Positions 11,932 to 29,626 of a DNA stretch of 51,823 nucleotides are shown here, in pieces (the first letter of the stretch is position 1; every line of letters begins with the position of its first letter). The position numbers and the translations under genes are program-made. The stretch lies in NCBI GenBank assembly GCA_020052515.1, contig JAGVOW010000035.1:1-51823 (forward strand), read 5' to 3'. The notes under the pieces were generated by a model. It was given only the letters and a program-made list of their open reading frames with translations, was not told where the DNA came from and did no database searches. This DNA comes from Brevinematales bacterium. Its GTDB lineage: Bacteria; Spirochaetota; Brevinematia; Brevinematales; JAOACQ01.

Positions 11932-13647
11932 TTATTTCTTCGGCGCGGTTTTTTGAGCTTTTTTCGGCACCGGAGCGGGTTTGGCCTCTACCATATTAGT
12001 CTGGTTACCATTTTCCTTTAATACCGGAGGAAAATTACTTTTCACTGTCTGAGCAGGCAAATTAGTCTCATGTTTTTGCGGAATTTCCATTTGGTTCGAT
12101 ACAACCAGGGCATTGGTATTCGTCACCGGAATAATCAGCATAAAATTAGTCACGATAGACTTTTTGTTTGTGGTTATGGAATTGGTAAACTCAAAATTCG
12201 TGAACTGATAATGAGACACTATAAAATTTGTCCCCAGATAATTGGTAAAGAAATAATTAGTCACTGGAATTCTTTTTGCTATAATATTGGTCATGATATA
12301 GTTTGTGCCTGGAAAATTCGTCAGTATGACATTCAACCCTCGGTAATTTGTCGCTATGTAATTTGTGCCCAGATAATTCGCCAATAAGTAATTTGTGATT
12401 CTATTATTGGTAAAATGGAAAACATAATTTGTCAGCCAGAGATTGGTAATGTGCTCTGCTTCCTCCATCATTTTCTCTTCCATTTGCATCTCTTTTCTTT
12501 CCGCTTCACGGTAAGCAAACGCGCTATTCGGCAGAAGAAGCTGATAGGAAAGCGCCAGCGCATGGCGGATAGCGCCCATATTAAGGCCGAAATCGATAGT
12601 GTAGTCGAGATTGATCTGATGAGATTGGCCAAGAACGTACATCAGCCCAATTCCGCCCGAAAGGTCTAAAGAACCGGTCAGCGTTAAACCCAATAGATTT
12701 AAAGTATCTCCCACCTTTGTCTGCTGGTAAATCGCCCCCAGCCTCACTGCCAGAATTTCGCCTTTAAATGAATTTTTGATAATATCTTGAGCAGTCAACT
12801 GCTTAAACTCAAAGCCCAGATTCCAGGAATTGTCCGCCTGCCTATTATCATTTGGATCCCTGCCATAGCTTACATAACCAAAGCCCAATTTTGATTTTTT
12901 CAAAACAGATAAGATGTCCCCTATTTCCCAATTTACTCCAAAGCGAAGCTCTCCCGGCAGTATATCCTGCCCATCAGCCAGAATAGATATATTAGGGGCA
13001 ATCAAATTTTTATAAGCAAGCCCCAGCCGAATAGATTGGCTGAAGTCGTAGGTAGCGCCTACATCCATGCCGAAAGAAAGCCTCTGTGTCTGAGAAATAT
13101 TAGGGTTATTCCTTACATCCACTGAATTTCCCAGCCCAATATCGTAAAGATTGAATTTCACTCCCAGGGAGATTTTGGCACCTTTTGAAATAACATCGTT
13201 TAGGTCTTTGGCGTAAGTCAAACTATAAATAGCTTCATGGTAAAATTCCACTGTACTGCCGTCAGAATCAATTCCTGAATTTCCCATCCTGTAAACGCTA
13301 AGCCCTATAGCCGCCCTTTTAGTAACAAACGGGTCAGGCCCAATGGTAAATCCACTCCAGAACGGTATAACCGCGCTGAAATTGAGAGTATTGATCGAAC
13401 TTTCATCGTTCAAAGTGGAATAAGGATTGTCCCAGGAGGAATAAACCTGCAGGCTGCGCGCCATAGAAATAGTTGCTGGATTTAAGTTCATCGTATTAAA
13501 CCCGTCAAAATCGGCAAAAACAGCATTGCCCATTGCCTTGCTCCGCGGGGTTTCGCCGACATTCTGAAAAGCCTCCGAAAAAGCAAGAGTATTTATCATA
13601 AAGACAGCGCCCGCCGTCAAAAAAATAAACTTCATCCTTTTGTTCAT
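11932..13647 (-). CDS. PorV/UPF0164-type outer-membrane barrel with C-terminal pentapeptide-like repeats
   Basis: The start at 13647 is chosen because AGGAGG precedes it and a signal peptide (residues 1-23) follows; the longer frame only translates the adjacent DNA repeat. Residues 24-60 show the PorV/UPF0164 pattern, a FadL-like barrel family (FQNVGETPRSKAMGNAVFAD, then NPATIS). Alternating strands continue to about residue 380. A charged helix (REAERKEMQMEEKMMEEAE) leads into an array of five-residue units TN(Y/F)xx, seventeen of them in phase at residues 413-497. A Pro/Lys-rich tail ends the 571-residue protein. PorV is the type 9 secretion shuttle, and two giant proteins with type 9-like C-termini are encoded directly upstream, so a role in their export or surface attachment is a reasonable inference. 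The repeat tail is not a feature of known PorV proteins. Confidence 0.8.
   Translation of the reverse strand: MNKRMKFIFLTAGAVFMINTLAFSEAFQNVGETPRSKAMGNAVFADFDGFNTMNLNPATISMARSLQVYSSWDNPYSTLNDESSINTLNFSAVIPFWSGFTIGPDPFVTKRAAIGLSVYRMGNSGIDSDGSTVEFYHEAIYSLTYAKDLNDVISKGAKISLGVKFNLYDIGLGNSVDVRNNPNISQTQRLSFGMDVGATYDFSQSIRLGLAYKNLIAPNISILADGQDILPGELRFGVNWEIGDILSVLKKSKLGFGYVSYGRDPNDNRQADNSWNLGFEFKQLTAQDIIKNSFKGEILAVRLGAIYQQTKVGDTLNLLGLTLTGSLDLSGGIGLMYVLGQSHQINLDYTIDFGLNMGAIRHALALSYQLLLPNSAFAYREAERKEMQMEEKMMEEAEHITNLWLTNYVFHFTNNRITNYLLANYLGTNYIATNYRGLNVILTNFPGTNYIMTNIIAKRIPVTNYFFTNYLGTNFIVSHYQFTNFEFTNSITTNKKSIVTNFMLIIPVTNTNALVVSNQMEIPQKHETNLPAQTVKSNFPPVLKENGNQTNMVEAKPAPVPKKAQKTAPKK
12157..12447 (-). 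repeat. Coding array of TN(Y/F)xx five-residue repeats
   Basis: Seventeen consecutive 15-base units (12411 down to 12157) encode a five-residue period, with units such as TNYLG, TNYIA, TNYRG, TNFPG, TNYIM, TNYFF, TNYLG and TNFIV. Degenerate units (LNVIL, KRIPV, SHYQF) keep the phase. Two further units (TNLWL, TNYVF) precede after a two-residue slip, reaching 12447. The pattern fits the pentapeptide-repeat consensus [STAV][DN][LF]xx with Tyr/Phe at the centre, which folds as a four-sided beta-helix in other proteins. Confidence 0.8.
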
Positions 13648-13666
13648 ATTGTCCTCCTGTGTTTCA

Positions 13667-13768
13667 TTCCCCCTTAAAAAAGGGGGCCGGGGGGTTGTAA
13701 AAAAGGCATTTCGCAAACTTATAAGCGTGCTCGGGAAACATCCCCCTACCCCCTTTTTTAAGGGGGAA
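13667..13768. repeat. Paired inverted repeat of the C-run family
   Basis: The left arm (ttcccccttaaaaaaggggg, then ccgggggg) and the right arm (atccccctaccccctttttt, then aagggggaa) are inverted copies enclosing about 45 bases. Each arm can form its own hairpin. The element fills most of the 124-base gap between the second giant gene and the PorV-like gene and could act as a partial mRNA processing or attenuation site. Its shape recalls small non-autonomous palindromic elements. Confidence 0.75.
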
Positions 13769-13771
13769 TTT

Positions 13772-16700
13772 TTACCTCACGACTATAATAGTCCCGCTGT
13801 AAGTTTTATCATCGGCTATGATCCTATAAATATAAATTCCACTTTTCACATCATAACCTTCATTGTCTTTTCCGTCCCAATAGACTTCACCCTGTTTATA
13901 TTCACCGCTTCTATCAAAACTCTTGATCAAATTTCCCCTGACATTATAAATCTTTACCTGATAACGGTCATGAGCCTCTTCAAAACCTATGCTGATTTTG
14001 ATGTTTTTGAAAGTTCTGTCATCCGCTCTGGGCGTAAAGACTCTCGGATCCGTCTTCACGCTGACAAAACCCGGCGCTCCTTTTATGGAATTGGCTTTGT
14101 CGCCAAATATCGCGTAATACTGGTGGAGGTAGCTCACCTTCACGGTTACTGTCTTTGCGCCCTTGTCGACCACACCACCAATCCGGATCCATTCTTTTGT
14201 CATACTTCTCCAGTAGTAAATAGCCAGTTTGTCTTCACTCCAGCCCTGCGCGCTGATTTCGGCTGGATTGTAATGAAGGATCACAATAATATCATTCGTG
14301 ATTTCCTGCTCTTTCATTGAGCCGTCGCTTAGATCCCGCATATCCACAAAATAAAGGGTCATGTTGTCCGGATTTGCCGGAGCTTCTATTGTTTTATTAT
14401 TCGCCGAAGCCGACTTCATATCGCCGTCAGAGAGATTGGTAACCCAGATGTCAATGGCGAAATTACGCAGAATAGAGTTTGGAGGAATAATAATTTTACT
14501 TTCACCGTCATTCTGTGAAACAATCTCTTGATTCTCCGTTGCTCGCGCGTTCAAAGGCGAATGCCTCAGTATATTTGTACCGACATTCGTAACAAAATTG
14601 GAGATCACCCCAATCGATGAAAGAGTGATATCCTTATAATTATTCACATAAAGAACCAGGTCATAAGTACCCGCCGGGATAAAGTCGACTCTGTACCTTC
14701 CACTGGAATCCGCCGTAGCAATGAGGTTAGCACCAAATTTGTTTGTCTGAATCTGGCTTGTATTCGTTTGAACGACCTTAACCGCCGTATTTAAACTGCC
14801 CGGCAAAGCCCATCCAATCAATCTGCCAAAATCAGCAACCTTTATCCAGAGAATATTTGTAGCCTCATCCGGAACGGTTGCTTTCTCATAATAATCGGAA
14901 CCATCAAATCGGATCATGCCGCCCATTGTCAGATTTGTTTCACTGGAAAAGTTATAAGCCAGATTGAAAGTCAAATTATCCGAAGCCTTTTTATCTATTA
15001 GCTTTGTCGAGTAATTTATCACTACCCCATTCGAACCATTGATATTCGTATACACAAAAGGAACATTGCTCTGGGCAAGCCAGCTGGAATAAATGCTGGA
15101 AATCTGAAGAATATTGGTGTCAATTGCCACAAAAGCGCTCTGACAGGTCAGGGCAAAAGAATTATTCTGAACTCTGTAAATCACAGAAGCGTTCGTGTCC
15201 AATGTATACAATACAGAATTTTCCTCAATAGACATCTGACTGGCGCTGGAAGGCTGATAGAAAGAAATCAAAATCCCTTTATTTGTAGCGGCGACATAGC
15301 CTTCAGAACTGCCGTTTTCCGCGTATATCGAATAATAATAATTGCCCATATTTTCAATGTGATAAATCGCGTCAAAAGAAAGTGTGTCCGTTAAAGATGA
15401 CGCCAGTCCAGCCGACAGCTCATTGGTATAATAAACAATCATCTCATTACTTGCCAGATGAATAGAGACAGCCTCATTAGTCAGGAACATACTGTTAATA
15501 TTAATAATATTGGTCAGTTCAAAAGGCATGATTATCTTCACCGCGTTAAAAGCGTTCGCTCCTTCACCCAGATTCATAATCTTGACTCTGATATGGTTGG
15601 TATCCCTGGCGGCTGGCGCGGAATTAGTCGTAATATAAAACCAGGCCGTATCAAAATAAGAAATAATCTCGGGCGCGGGCATATCAAAAGACTGCTTTAA
15701 AGCGCCGCTGCTCGTCTCTCTTGTGTTTCCATAGCCGCTTCCGTTATCCGCATTGACTTTCCATTCGACGTTATTGGTAGATCCTGTCTGCAGTTTATCG
15801 AGCAGGCTCAATTGAATCGTATCGCTTTCATTCTTGGACAAACCGCCGCTGTAAGTCACATAAACAAAGTTGGTCGAATTGATGTTACTGATCGCGGCAC
15901 TTCCCTTCAGGCTGGATGCGCTCACAGTATTGGTATAAATCAACGGCACATCAATGCGTAACGATAAGGTAGAAAGGCTGCCGGAGGAGTTGTTGTTGTA
16001 AGTAAGGACAACTGTATTGGAAAAATCTGTGCTGAGAACCGCCGAAGGAGATACGCCCGCGCTGGGAGCGCTGATAATTCTTTCAATAGAGTCGTAAACA
16101 TTGTCATTGGTTGCGGAATTACTATACATACCGTTTTCAAAGAGGGCGCTGACAAAAGCATTAGTTTCAATTGAAGCTTGATTCGTAAGGTAAAATACTA
16201 CTTCGTTTGTTTCCTGGCTGATAAAATTGGAATAAGCCATAATGTATCTATTGCCATTCCAATAAGCGTTGGTGACTCTGGAATTAGTCGTTGCCAGAAG
16301 GATTCCGCCGTTCGTAAAAATCGATGGGATTGTGACAACGCCCCTTGTAACTTTATTACTTCCCTTGCCTGTGTTGATAAATTTATAGCGCAAAGAAAAA
16401 TCATTTTGCCCCGTAAAGGCCTCGTTGAAAACTATTTTCGCTTTTACCTGCGGAGAAGGCATAGTAAACGCTAGAAGGTTTGTCCCTCCCTGCACTTCTG
16501 ACGCGGCGGTCTGCCCAAAGGAAGTGCTATAAATCAGGTTCACATTAATCCAGACGTTAGTATCCCCAAAGTCCAATTGATCCCATGCGGTGATAGACAC
16601 TACATCATTGCTGTTTGGAACAAAGACATTGCTGGAATAAAGAAGCTCTATGGTATTTGTCCCACCGAAATTGGTAAGGACAATATTGGTTGTCCTGGTT

Positions 16701-19700
16701 GAAGATACTAAAATAGCGTTTGTTATAAAGGGTGCAGGGAGCGCTATTCTCAGGCAAGAAATATTATTACCGGCTCCGCCTGTATTATTAACCTGCACGG
16801 AAAAGCTATTGGTATAATAGGAAGTATCCAGCGTGTTGGGTGTAACCCTGTAATCCGAGCGATAGCTTGGCTGAATGACTTCAAAGGCTGTATCACTGGG
16901 AACCAACAAGGCCGCCGGCACAAAAGCATCGGTGCTGGACGTATTAGCGATAAAGGCTTCCCAATTATCCGAAAAACCAGGCAAATTTTGATTGTCAAAA
17001 GCATTAAAGCTGATAACGTCAGCCATTCCGGACGCGAGATTGGTATTGGAAGTAAAATACTGTACCAGGATAGTGCCGTTTGTATAAGTTAATAAGCCGC
17101 CAATGCGGTTAGAAATAAAAGTTACATTCGTAATAATATCCGTCATTGTATTGGTGTGAGGCGGCAGTATCTTTACCATCTGAATGTTATTCCCCAGCAC
17201 ACCGTAGTTAGTAACAGTAATATTGTATCTTTCGGAAGTCATATCTTTACCTACTGTTTTAGGGCTTACAGCGGCATAAGTAGTAGGATTGGGCAAAAGA
17301 ATGGCCACAGAATTGCTGCACCCTGCCTTAATCAAAGTGCTTCGATAGCCGCCTCCATCCAGGTAATCAACTGAGACATTCCACCTTGAATTGGTGGGAA
17401 AAGAAATATAGTCTTTATTGACAACCAGTTCTATCTCACTAAAATTATTCCCAATAAAAGCATTGCCATAATCAAGAATAATGTTTGAAGCAGACACGGT
17501 AGAAGTAAAAACTTTTCCTCCTAAATAAGAAACACCAATCCCATCTGTCCGGTAAGGATAAGGAACATCTATTCTTACTTTTTTTACCGCTTTACTGCGG
17601 CTGTCCTGCCCATTAGTAATAATGAGATAAAGGACGTTGCTTACATCCGTTGTGAGGGCGGTAAGCGGAGTAACATTGATATTCGGCTGTTCCGTTGCGT
17701 AGGTATTGGAATCGTTGAAAAGGGCATTGCTCAGGGGCTGAAAAAATTCATTTCCTCCGTCCTTAAATCCATTAAACGCTGAAATCAGCCAACTATTGGT
17801 GTCCCCTACATTTGTATGAGAATGCACCGTGTGCAGCGTAATACTGTCAGAACTGCCCACTGTCAAGAATTTATTGGTATAGACAACTGTCAAATTGGTT
17901 GCGGTAATATTAAACAAGCCGGGCGCCAGGGTCGAATTGGTAGAAAGCCATGAACTTGAAACGGAAACAATAGTATTGGTAAATGCTGGCGGAAAGTTTA
18001 CCATAGCTTTAAAGAAAACATCCGATCCCGTTCCCATATTGGAAACTGTAATAGAGAAATCCTGGGCCTGATTGGTCCCTATAAAATAAACATTGGGCAA
18101 AATACCGCTTCCGCCTTTCGGCTTTGGAATCTCAAAATCAAGCGACCCGGATCCGTTGCTAATAACATTAGTAATAAAAATGCTTTCCCGGTCATTATAA
18201 ACTTTAGGCCCGACAATCAATCCAACGACATTAGAACCATCCACTTTGTCTACTAATGTAAAATCAATGCTATCGTTTGTCCCGCCGGTAAGCCTCTTGC
18301 CGGCGTTCTCGTAACTTACAACCAGAATATTGCTGTAAGCCGAGCAGATGCCCCCAAAAGCCGAACTTCCAGCGATAATAGTATCCACAACTTGCGGCGG
18401 CATCACAATGTCTACCCTTTTGATCCTATTGCCCGGCAATCCGTCATTAATGAGCTGACAGGTCAAATTATTGGTAATGGTAGTGGTATCAATAGAAGCG
18501 GGGCTGATAGAATAATGTGCTGAAACATAAGGGTGTTCTATTCTGATAGAATTTGTTAGAGTAAAAATACCTGTACCGCAATTGGTAAATAAAGATACGT
18601 CATTGGTTTCTGCGGCTGTCTTGTAAACATAAGTACCTAATTCCAAATTGGTAAGCGCCGTATTGGTATTCGAAAAACTATCCCATTCTATTTTATCCAG
18701 CGTTTTAATCACCAGCACATCTTTGTCGGCCGGCAGGCTCTCATAAGCCGAATGAAGCAGGCTTCCCCCATCTCCGGTATCCGCGGCGTATTGAATGTAA
18801 ACCATATTTGTACCGCCGATATTCGACAATACTAGATTTGCCTGATTTGATAAATGACTGCTACTCGCAGAAAGAATATTAGTAAACCAGACAGGCAATA
18901 CTACTTTAGCGAGCTTCACATTAACGCCCGCGGGAGAGGTATTGTAAATTTCATTGGTGATCGTGTTTGTCATGTCGCTGGTAAAAATCAGGGGGTTTAA
19001 AACTTGATTTTCCCCGCTGGGAAACGGAGGAGAAATCAGCATAGTCCAGCTTCCAGGTGAATTCTGGTCGCCTACATAATCTTCTGTGTTTTCGTTGTCA
19101 GCATAGACCTGCCAGTAGTTTGTAATGCTGTTTGTATCCACATTTGTAATTCTATGAATGGCTTGAAAAGTAATGGTGTCATTTGAACCCGCGAGAAGTT
19201 TATAATTGCCGGTATTGGTATAAGACAGCCAGATAGCCTGATTGGAAAAAACGGCTGAAGTTGAGTTAGTATGACTCCCCTGCCAGGATGAATGAATATT
19301 CCAGATATTTGTAAAATCAGGTGGAACAATGATCTTGGCCCGGACAAAGTCGTTGCCAAAATCCCCGCCGTTCAACAAACTGTAGCCGCAGTTCACAATG
19401 TTGCTCGCGGCAATCACATTGATAGTAACCTTTGCCGGAATAATGCTTCCATAAGGCTTCGGAGACTTTGATATCAGTTGAATAAACTGCCTGGAATAAT
19501 TTGTGTTTGTAGTCATCTGCCATGTCGTGCCTCCGACAAAGGCATCGCTATTGACATAAGATTTCCAGATATAATTGCTGATCTTTATGCCCAGAGGAAG
19601 GTCTGCCGTACCGTAGGCGCTAAAATTGATCTTATCAAAGCCCTGATTTCCGGCCAGCTTCATGCCGGCGGACGCGTAATCAATATAAATATAATTTCCC

Positions 19701-21517
19701 GCGCCGATGCCGCTTAAATTATTGGTTTTATAAATATAAGTAGAAGAAAGCGGCCCCAGAATTAAAGAAGAGAAATTGCTCACATTAAAATTGGAATCCG
19801 GAACAACTATCGCGGCCGTGCTGATATCAGGAGCATTGGCATTCCGGCTCGTATCAAATCTATAAATAAAAGAGGCCTCCGCTGTGCCTTCATAGTAGGG
19901 CGACACATTCACGCTGACGCTCGCATCTGACGCCGGCTGGGTGTAAGTCTTGACCAATAAAGCGTCCGTAAAAGCGGGAAAAGCTTTTTTTCTATCGGTA
20001 GTCGCGTATTTAATGCCCGAAGAATTGAATACAAAATCCTGCCCCGTATCCGCGTGCTTGATACAATCGGCGTATACCTCGAAAGTATCGCCTACCGCGT
20101 TTGGCACAGCGGGGGTAAATAAACTAAAGCTTACTTTCACAACAGAATTGTTATTGGTCACGATCTGATGCGACGCGCCAGACGTCATGTTAAAGCGGAT
20201 GCGCAATTCGCCGCTTGAGTTAGTGAAAATCGCGCATTTCCCCGCGGGCGGGTTGAAATTAGCGTTGGTATTGGTCAAAACAGCGTTTGAGCAGGAGGCG
20301 CTGTAGATATTGGAAACGCTTATGAGAGAAAAATTCCAATTTGATATAAAGCTGGCTGGTTTTTTGAGGGCTATTTCCCCTATTCCGCTGTCATTCGTGG
20401 AACCCATCTGGTTGGTGATAAAAACAGAAAAACTGGCAGAAGCTCCCGCTATTACTCTCTGCGGATAAACCGACGCCGCGAGATTGCTCGCCACTGAACG
20501 GATGAGAAAATTTCCCAGCTCGGTGTAAGTATAGGTATAAGTAGGCCCCACATTTCCCTCAGGAGTCGGCGATTCAGCCGCGAAGTAAGCGGCCAGGTTA
20601 TTCGCCCAGGCAGTAGAAGTTTCCGCGAATTTGATCCAGGAATTCGAAAAGCTCGCCGGATAGCGGCTCAAGGGGTCAAAATTGAGGTAAATAACCGCCT
20701 TTGATCCATTATGGGTAATCCTGATGCCCAATTCATTAGTCACTGTCCAACCATTAGCGTTGTTAAAACTGTATTGACGCTTGTAAAATGTGTTCGGGTT
20801 CATCGTGTTGCCGTCAATATCCGTTAAATTAGTCCAGGGGCTGTTGTTCCCATTGTCCCGCTCATAATCATTGAAATAGCCCCAGATATTGTTGCTTCTA
20901 TTGTTCACATTGTTGTGATTAAAGGCCTTGTCATAAAGAAAGATAAAATTATTAAAGCTGTCGCCAATATTCTGCGCGCCATTATCTTCCACCAGCCAGA
21001 ACTCTAAAAGGCCCTTGCCATAATTATCATCCAGATTCCCTGTATTATTTGGTGTGTAAGTCGGGCCAGGATCCCGATGCACATAGGTGGCATAGCGCAC
21101 CGCCATAAAACCAAAAGGCTCCTCCAGGCTCGCGTTCACGGCCTGGTTGCCCAACTCTGAATTGTTCGCCGGCCTGAAAATGGCGCCTTTTCCGGTGTAC
21201 CACTGGTCGTAAATCGGGTCCGCGTTCGGGTCACCGTATAAAATCAACCTCTGGTTCCCCTGCTGGTTGGATATAAAAAACTGCGCTCCGCCTCCGCTCG
21301 TCACATTGGTGGTATTGTCAACTAAAAAATAACGGTTCATGGGAAAATTAAAATTCCAGCCGTTCGCAAGAAGACTGACTGTAGTGCCGCTAAAGTTTTC
21401 GTAATAATAAAGAGATTTGGAGAATAAATTGAGCGGAATTTGGGAAGAGAAAATTATAGTTAATATTGAAATTCTGCAAGCTTTAAAAAATCCCTCGAAA
21501 AAAACATTTCCTCTCAT
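13772..21517 (-). CDS. Giant exported surface protein, T9SS-like C-terminus (paralogue 2)
   Basis: About 2,581 residues. The ATG at 21517 (third codon of the longest frame) is preferred because GGAG, which lies next to the upstream gene's stop, then stands six bases away. After a signal peptide (to about residue 35) comes a lectin/ConA-like region to about 330. About 13 diverged beta-sandwich modules of 130-160 residues follow; a typical one reads VSP...NNTGGAGNN...LRIALPAPFTN...sDtisf...D...TNvW. Then come a carboxypeptidase-regulatory-like domain (ADSSGRYRVDFIPAGTYDLV), a ZU5-like segment (ESKIIIPPNSI), and a C-terminal FlgD-type Ig domain (YQVKIYNVRGNLIKSF, then VYWDGKDNEGYDVKSGIYIYRI). 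Asn, Thr and Ser are very frequent. Such C-termini act as type 9 sorting signals in other phyla. Probably an adhesin or extended surface fibre; the ligand is unknown. Confidence 0.8.
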   Translation of the reverse strand: MRGNVFFEGFFKACRISILTIIFSSQIPLNLFSKSLYYYENFSGTTVSLLANGWNFNFPMNRYFLVDNTTNVTSGGGAQFFISNQQGNQRLILYGDPNADPIYDQWYTGKGAIFRPANNSELGNQAVNASLEEPFGFMAVRYATYVHRDPGPTYTPNNTGNLDDNYGKGLLEFWLVEDNGAQNIGDSFNNFIFLYDKAFNHNNVNNRSNNIWGYFNDYERDNGNNSPWTNLTDIDGNTMNPNTFYKRQYSFNNANGWTVTNELGIRITHNGSKAVIYLNFDPLSRYPASFSNSWIKFAETSTAWANNLAAYFAAESPTPEGNVGPTYTYTYTELGNFLIRSVASNLAASVYPQRVIAGASASFSVFITNQMGSTNDSGIGEIALKKPASFISNWNFSLISVSNIYSASCSNAVLTNTNANFNPPAGKCAIFTNSSGELRIRFNMTSGASHQIVTNNNSVVKVSFSLFTPAVPNAVGDTFEVYADCIKHADTGQDFVFNSSGIKYATTDRKKAFPAFTDALLVKTYTQPASDASVSVNVSPYYEGTAEASFIYRFDTSRNANAPDISTAAIVVPDSNFNVSNFSSLILGPLSSTYIYKTNNLSGIGAGNYIYIDYASAGMKLAGNQGFDKINFSAYGTADLPLGIKISNYIWKSYVNSDAFVGGTTWQMTTNTNYSRQFIQLISKSPKPYGSIIPAKVTINVIAASNIVNCGYSLLNGGDFGNDFVRAKIIVPPDFTNIWNIHSSWQGSHTNSTSAVFSNQAIWLSYTNTGNYKLLAGSNDTITFQAIHRITNVDTNSITNYWQVYADNENTEDYVGDQNSPGSWTMLISPPFPSGENQVLNPLIFTSDMTNTITNEIYNTSPAGVNVKLAKVVLPVWFTNILSASSSHLSNQANLVLSNIGGTNMVYIQYAADTGDGGSLLHSAYESLPADKDVLVIKTLDKIEWDSFSNTNTALTNLELGTYVYKTAAETNDVSLFTNCGTGIFTLTNSIRIEHPYVSAHYSISPASIDTTTITNNLTCQLINDGLPGNRIKRVDIVMPPQVVDTIIAGSSAFGGICSAYSNILVVSYENAGKRLTGGTNDSIDFTLVDKVDGSNVVGLIVGPKVYNDRESIFITNVISNGSGSLDFEIPKPKGGSGILPNVYFIGTNQAQDFSITVSNMGTGSDVFFKAMVNFPPAFTNTIVSVSSSWLSTNSTLAPGLFNITATNLTVVYTNKFLTVGSSDSITLHTVHSHTNVGDTNSWLISAFNGFKDGGNEFFQPLSNALFNDSNTYATEQPNINVTPLTALTTDVSNVLYLIITNGQDSRSKAVKKVRIDVPYPYRTDGIGVSYLGGKVFTSTVSASNIILDYGNAFIGNNFSEIELVVNKDYISFPTNSRWNVSVDYLDGGGYRSTLIKAGCSNSVAILLPNPTTYAAVSPKTVGKDMTSERYNITVTNYGVLGNNIQMVKILPPHTNTMTDIITNVTFISNRIGGLLTYTNGTILVQYFTSNTNLASGMADVISFNAFDNQNLPGFSDNWEAFIANTSSTDAFVPAALLVPSDTAFEVIQPSYRSDYRVTPNTLDTSYYTNSFSVQVNNTGGAGNNISCLRIALPAPFITNAILVSSTRTTNIVLTNFGGTNTIELLYSSNVFVPNSNDVVSITAWDQLDFGDTNVWINVNLIYSTSFGQTAASEVQGGTNLLAFTMPSPQVKAKIVFNEAFTGQNDFSLRYKFINTGKGSNKVTRGVVTIPSIFTNGGILLATTNSRVTNAYWNGNRYIMAYSNFISQETNEVVFYLTNQASIETNAFVSALFENGMYSNSATNDNVYDSIERIISAPSAGVSPSAVLSTDFSNTVVLTYNNNSSGSLSTLSLRIDVPLIYTNTVSASSLKGSAAISNINSTNFVYVTYSGGLSKNESDTIQLSLLDKLQTGSTNNVEWKVNADNGSGYGNTRETSSGALKQSFDMPAPEIISYFDTAWFYITTNSAPAARDTNHIRVKIMNLGEGANAFNAVKIIMPFELTNIININSMFLTNEAVSIHLASNEMIVYYTNELSAGLASSLTDTLSFDAIYHIENMGNYYYSIYAENGSSEGYVAATNKGILISFYQPSSASQMSIEENSVLYTLDTNASVIYRVQNNSFALTCQSAFVAIDTNILQISSIYSSWLAQSNVPFVYTNINGSNGVVINYSTKLIDKKASDNLTFNLAYNFSSETNLTMGGMIRFDGSDYYEKATVPDEATNILWIKVADFGRLIGWALPGSLNTAVKVVQTNTSQIQTNKFGANLIATADSSGRYRVDFIPAGTYDLVLYVNNYKDITLSSIGVISNFVTNVGTNILRHSPLNARATENQEIVSQNDGESKIIIPPNSILRNFAIDIWVTNLSDGDMKSASANNKTIEAPANPDNMTLYFVDMRDLSDGSMKEQEITNDIIVILHYNPAEISAQGWSEDKLAIYYWRSMTKEWIRIGGVVDKGAKTVTVKVSYLHQYYAIFGDKANSIKGAPGFVSVKTDPRVFTPRADDRTFKNIKISIGFEEAHDRYQVKIYNVRGNLIKSFDRSGEYKQGEVYWDGKDNEGYDVKSGIYIYRIIADDKTYSGTIIVVR

Positions 21518-21526
21518 ACCCATCTC

Positions 21527-24500
21527 CTACCGCACGATGATCACTGTGCCGGAATACGAACTATTGCCCGCGATCACGCGGTAAATATAAATACCACTCT
21601 TCACCGGATAGCCGCTCTCATCCTTTGCGTCCCAGGCAATTTCTCCCTGGGTATTTGCGCCATCCCGCTTGAAACTACGGATGAGGCCTCCCCGCAAATC
21701 ATAAATCTTCACCTGATAACCGGACGCTGTCTGTGCAGCATCCAATTCAAAAGTAATCCTGACATTTCCAAAGTACCCGGATTCATCTTTTGTAGGGGTA
21801 AAGACTCTTGGCCGGACTGCCACGTTCTTGATAACACCCTCTTCCGTCTTTCCGCCGAAAACGGCGTATTGATCATGCACATAGCTCGCCTTCGCTATGG
21901 CCCATTGATTCACTGTGTCAGCCTTTCCGCCTATTTTAATCCATTTTTTGAGCACCCGGTCCCAATAATAAACCGCGAGATTATCCTCACTCCAGCCCCT
22001 GGACTCAATATCGCCCTTGCTGTAAGAAAGATAAAGCGTAGCGTCCAGATTCAGGACCTCTCCCTCCACCGGATTATTATTCAGGTCATAAATCGACAGG
22101 CGATAACCTTTCAACCCTGAAACGCTCGAAGGCGAGAGAACCGCCTTGTTTTTATTCAAATCATCTTTCTGATCAGCCGTCAGGTCAAAAAGCCGGATAT
22201 CGACAGAAAAATCTTTCTTCACACTGCTGGTTGGAAATTCTATTTTAGTCTTATTGTCATCGTAAGAAACCACCTGCTGGACAGACGTGGCTTCCGGTGA
22301 TAAAGGGGCATTTTGAAGCGTAATAGTCGATATCATATTGGTCGTATTAGATATTACCGTGATGGAAGCCCGGTATGTCCTGAATTTCGAAGAAGTCAAT
22401 TCCAGAGAATAACCGCCTGCCGGAATTAAAGAAAAATTATACTGGCCATTTGTTTCAGAAAGAGTAGATACCAGCTCGCCGTCAACGTTAGTCGCCAGGG
22501 TAGAGCTTCCCGGATAATAAATCTTCACATTCACCTGATAGCCCTGAGGAGAAATATTCCCTGCGACTTTTCCCCAATTGCCCTGCGTAACTCTTAACAA
22601 TTTTGTATATCCCGCCGAAGCGGTGGCAAACCAGCCGTTTGTGGCCTGGGTTAAATAAACCTGCGAATCCATTAAGAAATTTGTAATGTTGGTAATCGAA
22701 TAGAGAATATTAAGCGTGATTTTATCCATCCGGTCAAAAGGAATTGGATTTGCTGAATAATCGACTAAAAGATAATTGCTGTTGTTCGGCTCGCTGTTAG
22801 AAATGCTCACCACAGAAGCGATCCAGGTATTAGAAACGGAAGATAAGATCAGATTGCTGTCATAGTAGATTTTCGCTTTTGTCAAAGTAGTATTAACGGA
22901 ATTATTAACAATGCGGTATTCTACTTTGTCGTTAGTGTTAATTGTGTAAATCTCGCTTCTTCCATTGATATAGCCGAACACGCTGATTGCCGGGAAATTC
23001 ATATAAATATTGAGGGCGCTTTCTCCCCCTTCACCCGCAAAGACAACCAGATTACTTTCAGTGTTCCCGTTAGTGAGGTTTGCCCCCTCTACCAGAACAT
23101 TTAGATTGGTCGCCGCTTCATAAGTGTTGGAAAAAGCACACCAGAGAACATCTGTGAAACCCGAATTAAAAAGATTGGTTGTCTGATAATCGACCAGAAT
23201 AACATTGCTGGAAACGCTGCTTAAAGCATCCGGAAAATACTGGTTGCTAAGAACGGTTAAATTAGCAAATCCAGCGGGTAAAGTCAATCTCACTTTTGTA
23301 AGTTTATTACTGCCCGTTCCTTTATTCACAACTTTTATGCCGATATTAGTCGCGGAAACAGTCGTATAGAGCTGGTTGCAGCTTAATTGCGCCGTCGCGA
23401 CAGGCGAAGGCATAACAAAATCAATAATATTTGAATACCCGAGAGCCGGGTCAAAATCAACCCAGGCATAACCATTGTAGCCTCTCATAGAGACAAGCGT
23501 GTTGGTACCCCCCATATCTATTTGGTCTAAAAGTGAGATGGACAGGTTGTCATTTCCTCCCGCGTTAATAAACTTGCCCTCAGCTTGATAGTCCAGAGTA
23601 ATCGAAGAAATCATGCCTTTGATATTGGTACTGTTGATCAAAAGGCTTTGCACAGAAAGTTTGTTGGTGAAGGGAGTACTAAAACTTACCACTACTTTAC
23701 TGAGTTTACTTAAGCCTCCGCTTCCCGTAATATCATTATTAATGTATACATTGACCGCATTACTGTAAGTGACGGTAGATAGACTGGAAGGGGATAAATA
23801 ATAAGTCGGAACCGATACAATTCTTAGCTTTTTAGCATCCAGATCTATATCACCAGCGCTCGCGGAATAAGTAGAATTTGAAATAAAACAGTCCATATTG
23901 AAATTTGTCTCTGATAGAGTTCCATTGGCAAAACTGAGATAAACCAGGTCATTGCTCGCTGGCTTAAAATTATTCGAGTAATAAAGAGCCAGAACGCCGT
24001 TGGAAGAATTGTAGATGATATTCGTAGCAAAAGAATTGCTCGCGTTTCCTGTACTAAAACCAGCCCGGTAAGGCGCTGGAATAGTAATAAAAGCCGCCCA
24101 TAAATCAGCTGTTCCGGAACCTGTATTGCTGATACTATAAGCAATCGTATAGTTCGTTGTTTTTGTATAAACTTCGGCTGGATTTGGATAGACTATTCCA
24201 GCCAGAGCGGAAGGAGAGGGCATATCAAAAAAAAGCGTCCAGGAATGGCCGCCGTAAGGAATGGCCGCCTTGAAACGATTGTCAGAAGTATCATAAGCGG
24301 AATCATTAGTCCAGTTAAGATTTGTCTCACCGTAAGAGAGGTTGTCATTGATCCTGAATGTTAAAACATCGCCTGAGCCCGGCACTAAAGGGGTATTATA
24401 AACAATGGTAATCGCTTTATTGCTCACAGAAATTGCCGCCGGCATGAGATTGGTGACGATTTGGAGCGAATTCGTATCAAACAGGCCCGGCACACCGGGT

Positions 24501-27500
24501 ATATAAATCCTGGTTTTGGTCAAATTGTTGCCAGAGTCACTCTGGTTGTAAACAGTGTATTTAAAAGTATTAGAGGTAATTGTTGTCCAGATCCTGTTTT
24601 CATAGCCGCTGACTCCGCCTATCGCTTCGATGTAAGCGGCGGCTTTGCAGTTTGGTTTGTAAATTATATTAGAAAGGGTCGTGCCATTGGGAACATTAAC
24701 AGCAATTAAATACTGCTCGTTCGTTGTAAACTCGCCGTTTGTCGCGTTCGCTATTTTGAATCCCCAATTGGAATAAACATCACCGTTGGTAACATTGTCA
24801 TAACCTATCAGGCGAATAGTGTCTGTCTCAGAAATCTGCAGATCCATAGAAGAAGCGGCGTAGTTCACCCACACATTGGTCCCGTCATAAACACCGCTGA
24901 CACCTTTTACTACTGAAGTAATAAAACTAATATTGGTAATGGTAGAAGGCGGTGTTATTTTAACCAATTTAATATTGTTGCCGCTAAATATGGTTGTATT
25001 CTTTAGATAAAATTCATAAGTATAGTTAGTAAAGTCTTCGGGCACCATTTCTCCTCTGGTCACATAGGCCGTAGCGGCGGCCGGTGGGAATGAAAAATCA
25101 ACGGTAATGCTCTTATTAGATTGAATGAGCGCGCTTCGGAATCCGCCGCCATCTCCATAATCCACGCTGGATCTTAAAATGGCAGTGTTTGTCCCGACAG
25201 CCCAGTTATCATCCAGAGTGAATCGGATGGTGTCCGCTTCACCGGGATTTAAACCCAGCGGGTAATTCGCGAAAACTCGATTAGTCCCGTTTATATTGGT
25301 AAAAACTGCCGTACCATTATTTCCACAGGAAAGGTTCGCCGCGTTGGTAAAAGGCGACAGTATATCAATTAAAACTCCAAAAATCTGAACCCCTCTGGAA
25401 TCACCAATTTTACCATTATTGATCACGTAGGCAAAAGCATTGGTGTCACTGGAAGTAAGAATCCCATTGGGGGAAACAGAAGCTTCCGCACGGTCCACAA
25501 AATGAATTACATTCGAATAAGCCGGCAGAATGTCTAAATTGGTTTCCGGAGGGCTTTCCAGACGAAAATTATCCGCTTTTAGATTCCAAAGACAGTTTGT
25601 TTCATTGGTGAAATTATTCCGAAAGTAAATGGACAAAGTGTCATTGCTTCCTGAAGGTAAAACGCTTGATAAATAATAATTGATATAAATTGTATCCTGA
25701 GGCCCGCTGATAAATATTTTAGCAGCGTCCTGAGAGTTGCTGAGATTCATCCAGAGGTCATAAATATCCAGGATTTTTCCCTGTAAAGCGGTGGGAACAT
25801 CAATTTTCAAATAATCCAGTTTGTTGCTTCCCCGGCCCCGGTTTGTGATAGAAAAAACAATAGTATTTGTCTTCATGTTTGTTTCAGTAAATAAAACGCT
25901 GGGCTCTATCTTATAACTCGCCATAACCGGCGGGTTCTGAATCACAAGGCTCTGGCTTTTACCATTGCTGACGCTCAGGACCGCGCTCTGCCTATTATTG
26001 GAAATCATATTTGTAATCACAATAGTCTGATTGTTACTAACTATATCAATAGCGTAAAAAACGACAGTGTCATTTGTGCCGCCGGAAAAAGCAAGGGCAT
26101 TCCCGTCGATAAAAGCCTGCGCGTAATTCAGGCTAAAAATACCGGTGTTTTTGTCATAAGAAAGATAACTGCTTGTATTGTTCGTGATCAAAGCACTGCT
26201 GTAATCCTTGACGTTTGTAATAAAATTAGTCGGTATAAAAATATCTGACTTTAAGATAACATTTCTTGCATTTCCACGGTTAGCTACCTCATAACGCAGT
26301 TCATAATAATCATTGGTAGAAGAATCCACAAAGCCATCCGGCATAACCAGAAAACCATCCGCGTTCACAGGGGGGTAAATATAAGAAAGCCTCGCGTCAT
26401 AAGGAATTTCCACCGCCCTGGTATAATTGGTCTTGCAGTTTTTAGTACTGATCTCAATCTGGGCCATGCTGGGAGTATTGATCACGTTCCAGATCCTTAA
26501 ACTGACGCTATCCTGTTCAGCGATGGTCGCTCCTGTTTTCGGTTTGAGGGTGTTTGTGTATTGAAGGTACAAAACCGCATTGGTATTCGTTATACCTCCG
26601 CCAATATTTGTTCTTTCATTGGATACCACACTCATAGCCAACTTATTGTCACCCAGTAACTGAGCATTTGTAATACCTGAAGGAAATAATATTCTGGCGT
26701 TCGTAATCTCATTTCCCTCTTCGCTGTCATTTTTTATTACCAGCACTATATTGGTGATATCCACATCCGTATAAATATGGTGGAAAGTCCTATCCGACAC
26801 ATTGGTTTCCTGATTTGGGCTGTCCACATACCCGAGCGCCCTGGCTGGCGGCGTAAAGAAAGCCATATCCCAGCCGTTTACCGGGTCCTCAGACAAAGAC
26901 GTCCAGCCATCTCCATTCATATTATCCGCTTCTACATTAGAAACAGAAACATTTGTCAGGTCGCTCTGGGCAGCTACATTGTCCTGAAGAGTCAAATGAA
27001 TATTATCATACCCATTATTTACAATAAAGTTTGTCGCGCTTCCATTTGTATAATCCACAATCAGATAAATTGAACCGTTCGAAGTAAAAGCAGATGGTGT
27101 TCCCAAAAGATCGGAGGAAATATTCGCGGCGTTAGTAAACAGCTCCGGAAGTTTTATTCTGACCAGCTTTATTTTATTGTCTGTTCCGGCAGCCGTATTC
27201 TGTACAACAATAGTAAAATTATTGGATACCAGAGTATTGGAAACAGTTAAAGGAGAAATGGAAACTAAGCCGGACGGCGGTTTCTTCCGGGTCAAAACCA
27301 TCTGAGAGGGATAAAAGCTGTTTGTCCCCGTATTGGTATAATCCCCTGTCAAAGAAGAATAAAATACCGCTGGCCAATAATTGGTAAGGCCGGGATTATT
27401 ATCCGGCACCGCTGGAGTATTGGTAAAGCGAATGGTAATGGTATCCACGCCGCTTCCAGCGGGAAGGTAGGTGTTATTGCTTTCATAATTGAGCACAATG

Positions 27501-29248
27501 ATGTTGGAACCGTTCGCGTTCGATAAATAGAAAATACCAGGCGTATTGCTGATTCCCATTTTTTCACTGTAAAGATAATTTGTATCAATAGAAAAAGCAT
27601 TGGTAACAATAATAAAAACTTTTGATACATCCGCGTTGTTATTGGTAGCAAAAAGAGCGGAAACGTTGTAATAGAGAATTCCTAAATCACCTTCATAAAC
27701 CTTATTGGGGCTAATACTGCTATGGCCAGATGGCCCATTGTAGGTTTTTAATGCCAGAACATCATAATTTCTGAGCCCAGAAGCAATGAGAGGCATATCC
27801 ACAGCGTTTCCTGCGAATGATTTCATTTTACCCGTAGTCGCCGCCTTTGTCCAGGCAGAATCCGGATATTTTTCATTATTCACATAAATCTCAAAAGCCT
27901 TGCCGACGGCATCTGCTGTTTGAAGCGTAGTAAAGTTTGAAACTATTAATAAAATAGCGTTTGTAGCGGCTGTTCCTCCGCCATTATCGGGGTGAAATGT
28001 TTCCCCGGAGTTAAACCGTATCTTTAATCTGCGCCTATCGCCAGAACTGACATTTTTCAGCGTTACATTGACATTACCGGCGGAAGGATTGGCGTCAATG
28101 CCGTAGGTCCTTCCAAACGTTTTGGCCAACGTCCCTGTACTGGAAATAAAATGAACGCTCATAGCGTTTGTCAGGCCGGCATTAGTCCATGAATAGCCGC
28201 TCGGCAAGTCTACATAAAACTCACCCACTCCCGCTTCCTCATTGGTTGAAAAATTGGGCTTTATCCCAAAATAGAGCGCGGATGTCGCCCCGGCTTTCAG
28301 CTCCGCCGGGGAAATTTCCGAAACCACATTGGAACAGACACTTCGCACAATAAAATTAGAAAGGCCCAGCTGTAAACGGGAAGTGCCTGCTGACAAACAA
28401 CCTGAAAAACCATTGTAGTTTAAAGTGGCTATTCCAAGAAAAGGCCTTAAATTATTTGAAAACACAACTGACGTTTTACTCAAAAGATAATATGTATTGC
28501 TATAAGCCGCATTATTGCCGCGCGGATTCGGATTCGCGTACCAGTATATATTCTCGCCGTCATTGACAAAACGGAAAGTGATCGCGTTTGTATTGGTAGC
28601 CGCGTTGTGGTCCCACTCCAGGATATTTTGAAGGCTATTGACGAGTCCCGCTTCATTACTGGGCCCAGTCAAAATAATCTTAGAATTTGTAAACAGCGCT
28701 TCCTGCCAGCCGAAATAAGATGTCGGTGATTTGTCCTGCCAATCCAGCTCACTGATAATGGCTGTCTGGTCAAATTTCTGGCCTTCCATCCCATTGATCG
28801 TAGCGCCATTTGTCACGCTGGCCTTTGCTTCCACAAAACCAATATTGAAAACACCCGCGAGCCATGATGCGCTTCCATTGTCATTTCGGAGGAAAGACCT
28901 TGTGATTTCAAAACCGACTGGATTTTCTTTTGAAGCGTTCAAATTGCCGTTTGTAAACAGGGCATAAATGCCATAAAGGCTGGTAGTGTATCCTACCGGC
29001 CCGGCGGCATAGCCATTGGTCAAAAGCAACTGATTCCCGGCAGTCGTAAAATTAGTCAATTCCGGTCCCTGATCGCCGCCTGTCAGCTGATAAAGATTCG
29101 TCCAGACACCCAGAGCCATATTGTACTTTAAATTTGGTATCCAATTATTAGGGCTGGAAAAATTATCGCTCACATAATAAGCTGAAACGCTTTGATTCCA
29201 GGAGAAAAAAAACACAAAAAGCGCCGCAAGCCAGCAGGCAAAGCGCAT
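21527..29248 (-). CDS. Giant exported surface protein, T9SS-like C-terminus (paralogue 1)
   Basis: About 2,573 residues. The start at 29248 is chosen because GGAGGA lies five bases upstream and the peptide begins MRFACWLAALFVFFFSW, a signal peptide ending near SVSA; the longest frame adds six residues. The architecture mirrors the next gene: a lectin/ConA-like N-terminal region (about 24-320), about 13 diverged beta-sandwich modules (for example ISPLTVSNTLVSNNFTIVVQ, then KLVRIKLPELFTN), a regulatory-like domain (NGQYNFSLIPAGGYSLEL), a ZU5-like segment, SRGWSEDNLAVYYWDRVLKKW, and a FlgD-Ig domain ending SGIYIYRVIAGNSSYSGTV. The last 150 residues are the best conserved part between the two. 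The genes are three bases apart and arose by tandem duplication. Function as adhesins or surface fibres is inferred from size, repeats and export signals. Confidence 0.8.
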   Translation of the reverse strand: MRFACWLAALFVFFFSWNQSVSAYYVSDNFSSPNNWIPNLKYNMALGVWTNLYQLTGGDQGPELTNFTTAGNQLLLTNGYAAGPVGYTTSLYGIYALFTNGNLNASKENPVGFEITRSFLRNDNGSASWLAGVFNIGFVEAKASVTNGATINGMEGQKFDQTAIISELDWQDKSPTSYFGWQEALFTNSKIILTGPSNEAGLVNSLQNILEWDHNAATNTNAITFRFVNDGENIYWYANPNPRGNNAAYSNTYYLLSKTSVVFSNNLRPFLGIATLNYNGFSGCLSAGTSRLQLGLSNFIVRSVCSNVVSEISPAELKAGATSALYFGIKPNFSTNEEAGVGEFYVDLPSGYSWTNAGLTNAMSVHFISSTGTLAKTFGRTYGIDANPSAGNVNVTLKNVSSGDRRRLKIRFNSGETFHPDNGGGTAATNAILLIVSNFTTLQTADAVGKAFEIYVNNEKYPDSAWTKAATTGKMKSFAGNAVDMPLIASGLRNYDVLALKTYNGPSGHSSISPNKVYEGDLGILYYNVSALFATNNNADVSKVFIIVTNAFSIDTNYLYSEKMGISNTPGIFYLSNANGSNIIVLNYESNNTYLPAGSGVDTITIRFTNTPAVPDNNPGLTNYWPAVFYSSLTGDYTNTGTNSFYPSQMVLTRKKPPSGLVSISPLTVSNTLVSNNFTIVVQNTAAGTDNKIKLVRIKLPELFTNAANISSDLLGTPSAFTSNGSIYLIVDYTNGSATNFIVNNGYDNIHLTLQDNVAAQSDLTNVSVSNVEADNMNGDGWTSLSEDPVNGWDMAFFTPPARALGYVDSPNQETNVSDRTFHHIYTDVDITNIVLVIKNDSEEGNEITNARILFPSGITNAQLLGDNKLAMSVVSNERTNIGGGITNTNAVLYLQYTNTLKPKTGATIAEQDSVSLRIWNVINTPSMAQIEISTKNCKTNYTRAVEIPYDARLSYIYPPVNADGFLVMPDGFVDSSTNDYYELRYEVANRGNARNVILKSDIFIPTNFITNVKDYSSALITNNTSSYLSYDKNTGIFSLNYAQAFIDGNALAFSGGTNDTVVFYAIDIVSNNQTIVITNMISNNRQSAVLSVSNGKSQSLVIQNPPVMASYKIEPSVLFTETNMKTNTIVFSITNRGRGSNKLDYLKIDVPTALQGKILDIYDLWMNLSNSQDAAKIFISGPQDTIYINYYLSSVLPSGSNDTLSIYFRNNFTNETNCLWNLKADNFRLESPPETNLDILPAYSNVIHFVDRAEASVSPNGILTSSDTNAFAYVINNGKIGDSRGVQIFGVLIDILSPFTNAANLSCGNNGTAVFTNINGTNRVFANYPLGLNPGEADTIRFTLDDNWAVGTNTAILRSSVDYGDGGGFRSALIQSNKSITVDFSFPPAAATAYVTRGEMVPEDFTNYTYEFYLKNTTIFSGNNIKLVKITPPSTITNISFITSVVKGVSGVYDGTNVWVNYAASSMDLQISETDTIRLIGYDNVTNGDVYSNWGFKIANATNGEFTTNEQYLIAVNVPNGTTLSNIIYKPNCKAAAYIEAIGGVSGYENRIWTTITSNTFKYTVYNQSDSGNNLTKTRIYIPGVPGLFDTNSLQIVTNLMPAAISVSNKAITIVYNTPLVPGSGDVLTFRINDNLSYGETNLNWTNDSAYDTSDNRFKAAIPYGGHSWTLFFDMPSPSALAGIVYPNPAEVYTKTTNYTIAYSISNTGSGTADLWAAFITIPAPYRAGFSTGNASNSFATNIIYNSSNGVLALYYSNNFKPASNDLVYLSFANGTLSETNFNMDCFISNSTYSASAGDIDLDAKKLRIVSVPTYYLSPSSLSTVTYSNAVNVYINNDITGSGGLSKLSKVVVSFSTPFTNKLSVQSLLINSTNIKGMISSITLDYQAEGKFINAGGNDNLSISLLDQIDMGGTNTLVSMRGYNGYAWVDFDPALGYSNIIDFVMPSPVATAQLSCNQLYTTVSATNIGIKVVNKGTGSNKLTKVRLTLPAGFANLTVLSNQYFPDALSSVSSNVILVDYQTTNLFNSGFTDVLWCAFSNTYEAATNLNVLVEGANLTNGNTESNLVVFAGEGGESALNIYMNFPAISVFGYINGRSEIYTINTNDKVEYRIVNNSVNTTLTKAKIYYDSNLILSSVSNTWIASVVSISNSEPNNSNYLLVDYSANPIPFDRMDKITLNILYSITNITNFLMDSQVYLTQATNGWFATASAGYTKLLRVTQGNWGKVAGNISPQGYQVNVKIYYPGSSTLATNVDGELVSTLSETNGQYNFSLIPAGGYSLELTSSKFRTYRASITVISNTTNMISTITLQNAPLSPEATSVQQVVSYDDNKTKIEFPTSSVKKDFSVDIRLFDLTADQKDDLNKNKAVLSPSSVSGLKGYRLSIYDLNNNPVEGEVLNLDATLYLSYSKGDIESRGWSEDNLAVYYWDRVLKKWIKIGGKADTVNQWAIAKASYVHDQYAVFGGKTEEGVIKNVAVRPRVFTPTKDESGYFGNVRITFELDAAQTASGYQVKIYDLRGGLIRSFKRDGANTQGEIAWDAKDESGYPVKSGIYIYRVIAGNSSYSGTVIIVR

Positions 29249-29626
29249 AATTTCCTCCAACCGCAAGAATTAAAACCAGATTCGTCATAAAAAACAAATA
29301 AACTTTTTTTTATTGCTTTATAGTATCGGAAATTGTTGTCTAATAGTTTACTTTTAACTCGCCCCGCTACAGATACCATCTCCCCTCTTGGGAGGGGTTG
29401 GGGGTGGGTTATCTCGGTAGTGCCAGAAAAACAAAACCCACCCCTGACCCCTCCGCGGGAGGGGAAATGGTTTTGACCGGCTGAATAGTTATTTTCATAG
29501 CATTCTTAATTCTAACGACAAGGAAAACAAAAAACAAGCTCCACAAGGTACTGTTGTTATCCCTCTTTCGGTCGGATTTTCTTTTCTCTACATGATATTA
29601 CTGTATTTCCGGATAGAAAATGAAGT
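29249..29626. other. Intergenic region upstream of the giant-protein genes
   Basis: 378 bases without a credible gene, between the ispG stop and the first giant gene, both on the minus strand. It must hold the promoter of the surface-protein locus. A TATAAA on the minus strand near 29320 is the best -10 candidate, but no good -35 box is spaced correctly, so I do not call it. The paired inverted repeat at 29376-29470 lies in the middle. A string tttcggtcggattttc at 29566-29581 repeats 287-302 with one mismatch. No clear ispG terminator is seen. Confidence 0.55.
29376..29470. repeat. Paired inverted repeat, C-run family
   Basis: A left arm (29376-29410) and right arm (29435-29470) of about 35 bases are inverted copies of each other, beginning ccatctcccctc/ccatttcccctc and ending gggtgggtt. 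Each arm also contains a smaller hairpin (cccctc...gagggg). Only 24 bases separate the arms. It is the most symmetrical member of the family in this window and resembles a miniature palindromic element. Confidence 0.8.

Follow-up and report, generated by a model that had tools for sequence, protein, structure and literature searches.

A probable SprA-dependent, type 9-like export route for two giant surface proteins of a Brevinematales spirochaete

Brevinematales is an order within the Spirochaetota. The stretch of DNA analysed here (the window, 51,823 nucleotides) is one entire contig of a Brevinematales MAG of 2.6 Mb in 114 contigs that is 99.6% complete. Two giant genes lying 3 bp apart are followed after 55 bp by the gene of an outer-membrane barrel, all on the minus strand (Table 1). 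This arrangement agrees with an earlier sequence-only reading of the window, the ATG at 29248 fitting the end given there for the first gene. Type 9 secretion (T9SS) has been assigned to Bacteroidota, with other FCB phyla as possible further holders, and is stated to be absent elsewhere (PMC11285876), an earlier survey having placed it only in Bacteroidetes (PMC4793230). The suspicion that type 9 secretion might be poorly described in this lineage is borne out by these accounts, in which the phylum is without it. The literature searched yielded no account of SprA or of T9SS from spirochaetes, most subscription journals lying outside that search. A putative SprA-type translocon in spirochaetes, with cargo bearing a C-terminal sorting-like domain (CTD), would be new, the phylum being said to lack T9SS.

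Table 1. Features of the giant-barrel locus (positions in the window)
Feature	Position	Strand	Remarks
Giant surface protein 1	21527..29248	-	~2,573 aa from ATG 29248; open frame 21527-29266, 2,579 aa
CTD of giant 1	21530..21823	-	PF13860 27.1 bits, TIGR04183 22.9 bits; clade CTD model
Giant surface protein 2	13772..21523	-	2,583 aa; architecture same as giant 1
Array of 12 divergent ~140-aa modules, giant 2	14918..19945	-	Cross-validated module profile from giant 1
CTD of giant 2	13775..14059	-	PF13860 27.1 bits; clade CTD model
PorV/PorP-family outer-membrane barrel, probable dedicated shuttle	11932..13647	-	NF033709 E=1.5e-6; AlphaFold; synteny; frame 11932-13716, likely ATG 13647
Barrel C-terminal tail	11935..12516	-	~194 aa, TN-rich, lysine-rich end

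Giant 1 comprises a signal peptide, an N-terminal domain of ~300 aa, 11-12 modules of ~140 aa, a CarboxypepD_reg-like segment and the CTD, and is 28% identical to giant 2 across more than 2,300 residues. The signal peptides previously noted on both giants are recognisable by eye in the predicted sequences. Self-BLAST of the giants revealed no internal repeats and a cross-validated module profile was needed; the profile built from one giant detected 11-12 copies of the ~140-aa module in its partner, and likewise in relatives, with all scores exceeding the best of 50 shuffles. The repeated modules are confirmed, at a count of 11-12 instead of the "about 13" first proposed. A lectin-like start was unsupported, the N-terminus yielding no Pfam match at E<=1. 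The giants are probably adhesive surface proteins, and both appear to combine the signal peptide and C-terminal sorting-like domain expected of T9SS cargo.

The Bacteroidota system sends its cargo through SprA onto a docked carrier barrel, and the GldK-N chain supplies the energy that sets this complex free (PMC12635249). Type B substrates or adhesins require an SprF-like carrier encoded directly downstream (PMC12618676), and the carrier also anchors them (PMC9143113). For the giants, an SprA-dependent, type 9-like export with dedicated shuttles is considered the probable route, with transport itself, the pairing of cargo with shuttle and surface retention all read from sequence. Sec would take the giants across the inner membrane, and an SprA/Sov-type translocon, whose gene lies elsewhere in the genome, across the outer one. 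The FlgD-Ig-like domain at their C-termini would serve as the sorting signal; the downstream barrel of the PorV/PorP family would receive this domain from SprA and keep the giants attached to the cell surface, in the manner of SprF with SprB in Flavobacterium.

The window holds no PorK, PorL, PorM, PorN, SprA or PorU gene, as had been stated. A full-length homologue of SprA/Sov (1,905 aa) was found on another contig of the host genome (C24:10922-16636) with a match to TIGR04189 at E=1.2e-23. Matches of spirochaete SprA proteins to this model range between 60 and 135 bits and do not reach its equivalog cut-off of 200 bits. A profile of 25 spirochaete sequences aligned with SprA of F. johnsoniae (6h3i_A) over two collinear segments (E=3.9e-38); a single-clade profile (A1) gave no PDB match, whereas the broader A6 profile did. 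The AlphaFold model of residues 130-1300 (1,171 residues, pLDDT 79) retrieved four T9SS SprA structures as its best PDB matches (8gl6, 8gl8, 6h3i and 6h3j, E 5e-43 to 3e-31), the next match falling to E 1.5e-8. The identity of SprA is thus backed by both sequence and fold, and by homology and predicted structure the host genome encodes an SprA/Sov-type translocon. Since this lies on a different contig, the locus is better described as cargo with a probable shuttle than as the self-contained unit originally envisaged. No other recognised T9SS genes were found beside the SprA gene, either in the host genome or in the relatives examined; its neighbours encode an integrase and large proteins of phage-like or tail-like character (L033 9892-16969). 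Residues 835-894 of the homologue (P0004) include an acidic EDxDxDG...TEDLN motif, conserved among the spirochaete SprA homologues and weakly calmodulin-like, which is possibly a calcium site in the translocon.

The genome-wide search that the sequence-only reading had proposed recovered, besides SprA, a PorV-family barrel that scores better than that of the window and additional CTD proteins, so the genome is devoid neither of T9SS core genes nor of other proteins sharing the domain. The remaining machinery had been expected to lie elsewhere or to be absent: SprA does lie elsewhere, and PorU, PorL, PorM and PorN were undetected in the host genome, which counts against the SprA-dependent route. 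In Bacteroidota these four energise or complete transport. A PorU-like Peptidase_C25 was lacking from the host genome and exceeded the cut-off in only two of 55 genomes searched, G047 carrying a strong C25 protein. The 55 nearly all possess SprA or sets of CTD and PorV-family genes. GldM/PorM, GldL/PorL and GldN/PorN gave no credible match in any of them, the host included, an absence that is provisional because no T9SS-positive genome was among the controls. Weak GldL matches were rejected as coiled-coil noise.

Two readings of this gap may be entertained. The T9SS of Spirochaetota may be complete, with PorK-N and PorU present in forms too divergent for models based on Bacteroidota, a possibility that deserves serious consideration while falling short of being favoured. 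Even SprA stays at 60-135 bits where the cut-off is 200, hence shorter, faster-evolving parts could escape detection; the 14 control genomes, none T9SS-positive, were likewise without matches to C25, GldM or GldN, and G047 does have its C25 protein. Conversely, PorM, PorL and PorN found no credible match even where a genome has 60-88 candidates for PorV and for CTDs, and the weak GldL matches are confined to its coiled-coil part, mostly within much longer frames. It is suggested, equally tentatively, that SprA-based export in Spirochaetota, whether ancestral or stripped, proceeds without a PorK-N energy chain or PorU, that every large cargo comes with a PorV-type shuttle of its own, and that motor coupling is taken over by the basic periplasmic tail of this shuttle or by a different envelope protein. 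If SprA-dependent export operates as proposed, this would be a naturally occurring example of a translocon that may need no rotary motor, making the energy requirement of SprA testable. The spirochaete set resembles the T9SS of Bacteroidota in its giant SprA homologue, in 14-strand FadL-type barrels of the PorV family, in a C-terminal Ig-like domain of the FlgD_ig/Por_Secre_tail/CHU_C kind and, in related spirochaetes, in hydrolase cargo. It differs in lacking a detectable PorU sortase, PorL/M motor and PorN hub, and in having several PorV-family barrels, each paired with a single cargo gene, where Bacteroidota have one shared PorV.

The final FlgD-Ig domain reported for both giants was upheld by the HMM check, with PF13860 (FlgD_ig) at 27.1 bits lying just above the Pfam cut-off of 27 and TIGR04183 (Por_Secre_tail) in giant 1 at the very edge of its own (22.9 bits, cut-off 23). 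CHU_C and PF18962 remained below cut-off, and type B CTD models gave no match to the window proteins at E<=1. Four proteins of the host genome bear a terminal CTD, a subtilase (C76) among them. FlgD_ig copies in proteins of contigs C95, C67 and C13 are internal and were therefore left out of the count of CTD cargo. On contig C95 (G000, L041), kdpA/kdpB are duplicated as a perfect inverted repeat, and the FlgD_ig matches recur in mirror image on either side; this palindrome is probably an assembly artefact of the MAG. Genes on a further contig, C80, presumably encode FlaA-type flagellar sheath proteins.

When the CTD profile was searched against the PDB, the best matches, WD40 and NHL propellers, were discarded as repeat artefacts of 20-27 residues. 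FlgD was among the best matches, and by sequence the domain is no less similar to FlgD than to T9SS CTDs, a point against the SprA-dependent route. The CTD might accordingly be a mere terminal Ig-like domain as in FlgD, without a sorting role, and spirochaete SprA might do something else; the internal FlgD_ig copies in non-CTD proteins of the host genome would suit this explanation. It is nevertheless unlikely, since the domain is terminal and ends in K/R across unrelated proteins (giants, subtilase, GH, CBM and pectin-lyase-like enzymes), several CTDs exceed the CHU_C cut-off, one comes within 0.3 bits of that of Por_Secre_tail, and strong CTDs co-vary with SprA.

The barrel had been called PorV/UPF0164-type, of which the PorV part stands by weak sequence similarity (NF033709, PorV_fam, E=1.5e-6, 28 bits, cut-off of 90 bits not reached) and the UPF0164 part does not, the model returning no match. 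TraF_2 matched above its cut-off at 37.5 bits; PorP/SprF models gave nothing at E<=1. Orthologues of the barrel match both PorV_fam and the PorP/SprF family, the latter at about 1e-5 and below cut-off, and the family profile, searched against the PDB, returned PorV and nothing else at E<=10 (E=0.029). AlphaFold predicted a FadL-type barrel (pLDDT 73), for which Foldseek placed FadL, CymD and TodX on top and PorV 20th. PorV and FadL are both FadL-type barrels. The structural comparison proposed earlier thus ranks FadL-type channels first by fold, while sequence favours PorV; the fold search was set aside as an arbiter because it cannot separate the two. Members of the barrel family extend 36-202 residues past the last strand and most end in a lysine-rich stretch. 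From FadL topology this tail is presumably periplasmic; that it anchors or energises anything is speculation.

The pair formed by SprB and SprF provides a close parallel in layout, consisting of a very large repetitive surface protein and a FadL-type barrel encoded directly downstream, as here. The spirochaete CTD is nonetheless nearer to type A/FlgD_ig than to type B, and the window barrel is nearer to PorV_fam than to PorP/SprF, though its orthologues match both; the combination of a type B CTD with a PorP/SprF-family barrel was not found among the window proteins. SprF binds GldK through twin cysteines (PMC12635249), whereas the mature window barrel contains no cysteine. With FadL/TodX channels and Treponema UPF0164 proteins the barrel shares its fold superfamily, but it differs from them in having no Toluene_X support above cut-off, no UPF0164 match and a genomic link to CTD cargo.

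A second PorV-family barrel of the host genome, on contig C45, scored 108 bits against the NCBI cut-off of 90 that the window barrel fails to reach, and is encoded 78 bp behind a 409-aa CTD protein; the match of the C45 barrel to UPF0164 is weak (E=0.02). The barrel protein (L034:10775-12346) has TPR and AMPK1_CBM-like domains after the barrel, an unusual fusion. The presence in one genome of SprA, the C45 pair and the CTD subtilase argues for the SprA-dependent route.

The order of two giants followed by the barrel is kept in three genomes of another family (G059, G088 and G083); a giant precedes the barrel in the sister family f5 (G052, G045 and G108), and a CTD gene does so in G021, with gaps, including that of the window, of -1 to 55 bp. 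A CTD gene followed by a PorV-family barrel also recurs in other lineages, one contig of G025 holding three such pairs. The putative shuttle gene lies directly downstream of its cargo: the gap is 55 bp in the window and ranges from -4 to 78 bp over 16 further pairs; some of the contigs measured were picked for holding both genes, so order and tight spacing are informative and frequency is not. The complete single-contig genome of family f2 (G026) has four giants and one barrel orthologue that are unlinked, which speaks against the proposed route, as does a barrel scoring under the PorV_fam cut-off with a model at least as FadL-like as PorV-like. Brevinematales family f4, with reduced genomes of 1.5-2 Mb, has lost or lacks the whole set, SprA, barrel and CTDs all being absent, which together with the conserved gene order speaks for the route.

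The barrel might then be an ordinary FadL-type nutrient channel that stands beside the giants by chance, the giants leaving by another route. Its Foldseek ranking and sub-threshold PorV_fam score are what such a channel might give. This explanation is improbable, given that the cargo-barrel order is kept in several families, that giants and barrel are both retained in f2 and jointly absent from f4, and that by sequence the family finds only PorV in the PDB and its orthologues match PorP/SprF. The window barrel is the probable dedicated shuttle of the giants.

Of 393 genomes sampled across the phylum, 96 gave a match to SprA, representing 67 of 167 genera. SprA was present in 44 of the 48 genomes with a PorV-family barrel above cut-off and in 29 of the 31 with a strong CTD, both exceptions being less than 80% complete. 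Odds ratios were about 60 for either association at genome level, uncorrected for shared ancestry. As genomes are not independent, the family-level figures are safer (p=1e-4 for the PorV-family barrel and p=2e-3 for the strong CTD, with SprA counted as present at any E<=0.001). Contamination of the MAG or recent transfer of the SprA and CTD genes from Bacteroidota is very improbable: the host genome is indeed a MAG of 114 contigs and SprA of G021 seems out of place, G008 of the same genus being negative, but SprA extends over the 67 genera, single-contig genomes included, and its identity drops with taxonomic distance (about 48%, 36%, 30% and 25%), as expected under vertical descent. If the SprA-dependent route is correct, the presence of SprA and CTD cargo in many spirochaete genera would move the origin of T9SS back or sideways.

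Three genomes from two families (G025, G036 and G012) each yielded 60-88 first-look candidates for CTDs and for PorV-family barrels. Cargo sampled from these and from G002 carries GH125, GH2, CBM11/30, BNR and pectin-lyase-like domains, a predicted set typical of a type 9 secretome and large in candidate number. SprA-dependent export would, if true, give the surface adhesins of spirochaetes a predicted route, one that dozens of hydrolases would share in some lineages.

The SprA and CTD-barrel pair of G021 (L056/L112) show near class-level similarity, same-genus G008 being without SprA, and represent transfer or contamination. A 3.2-kb contig in an Omnitrophota bin (L076) encodes an SprA 50% identical to that of the host genome and is likely to be contamination from a Brevinematales genome.
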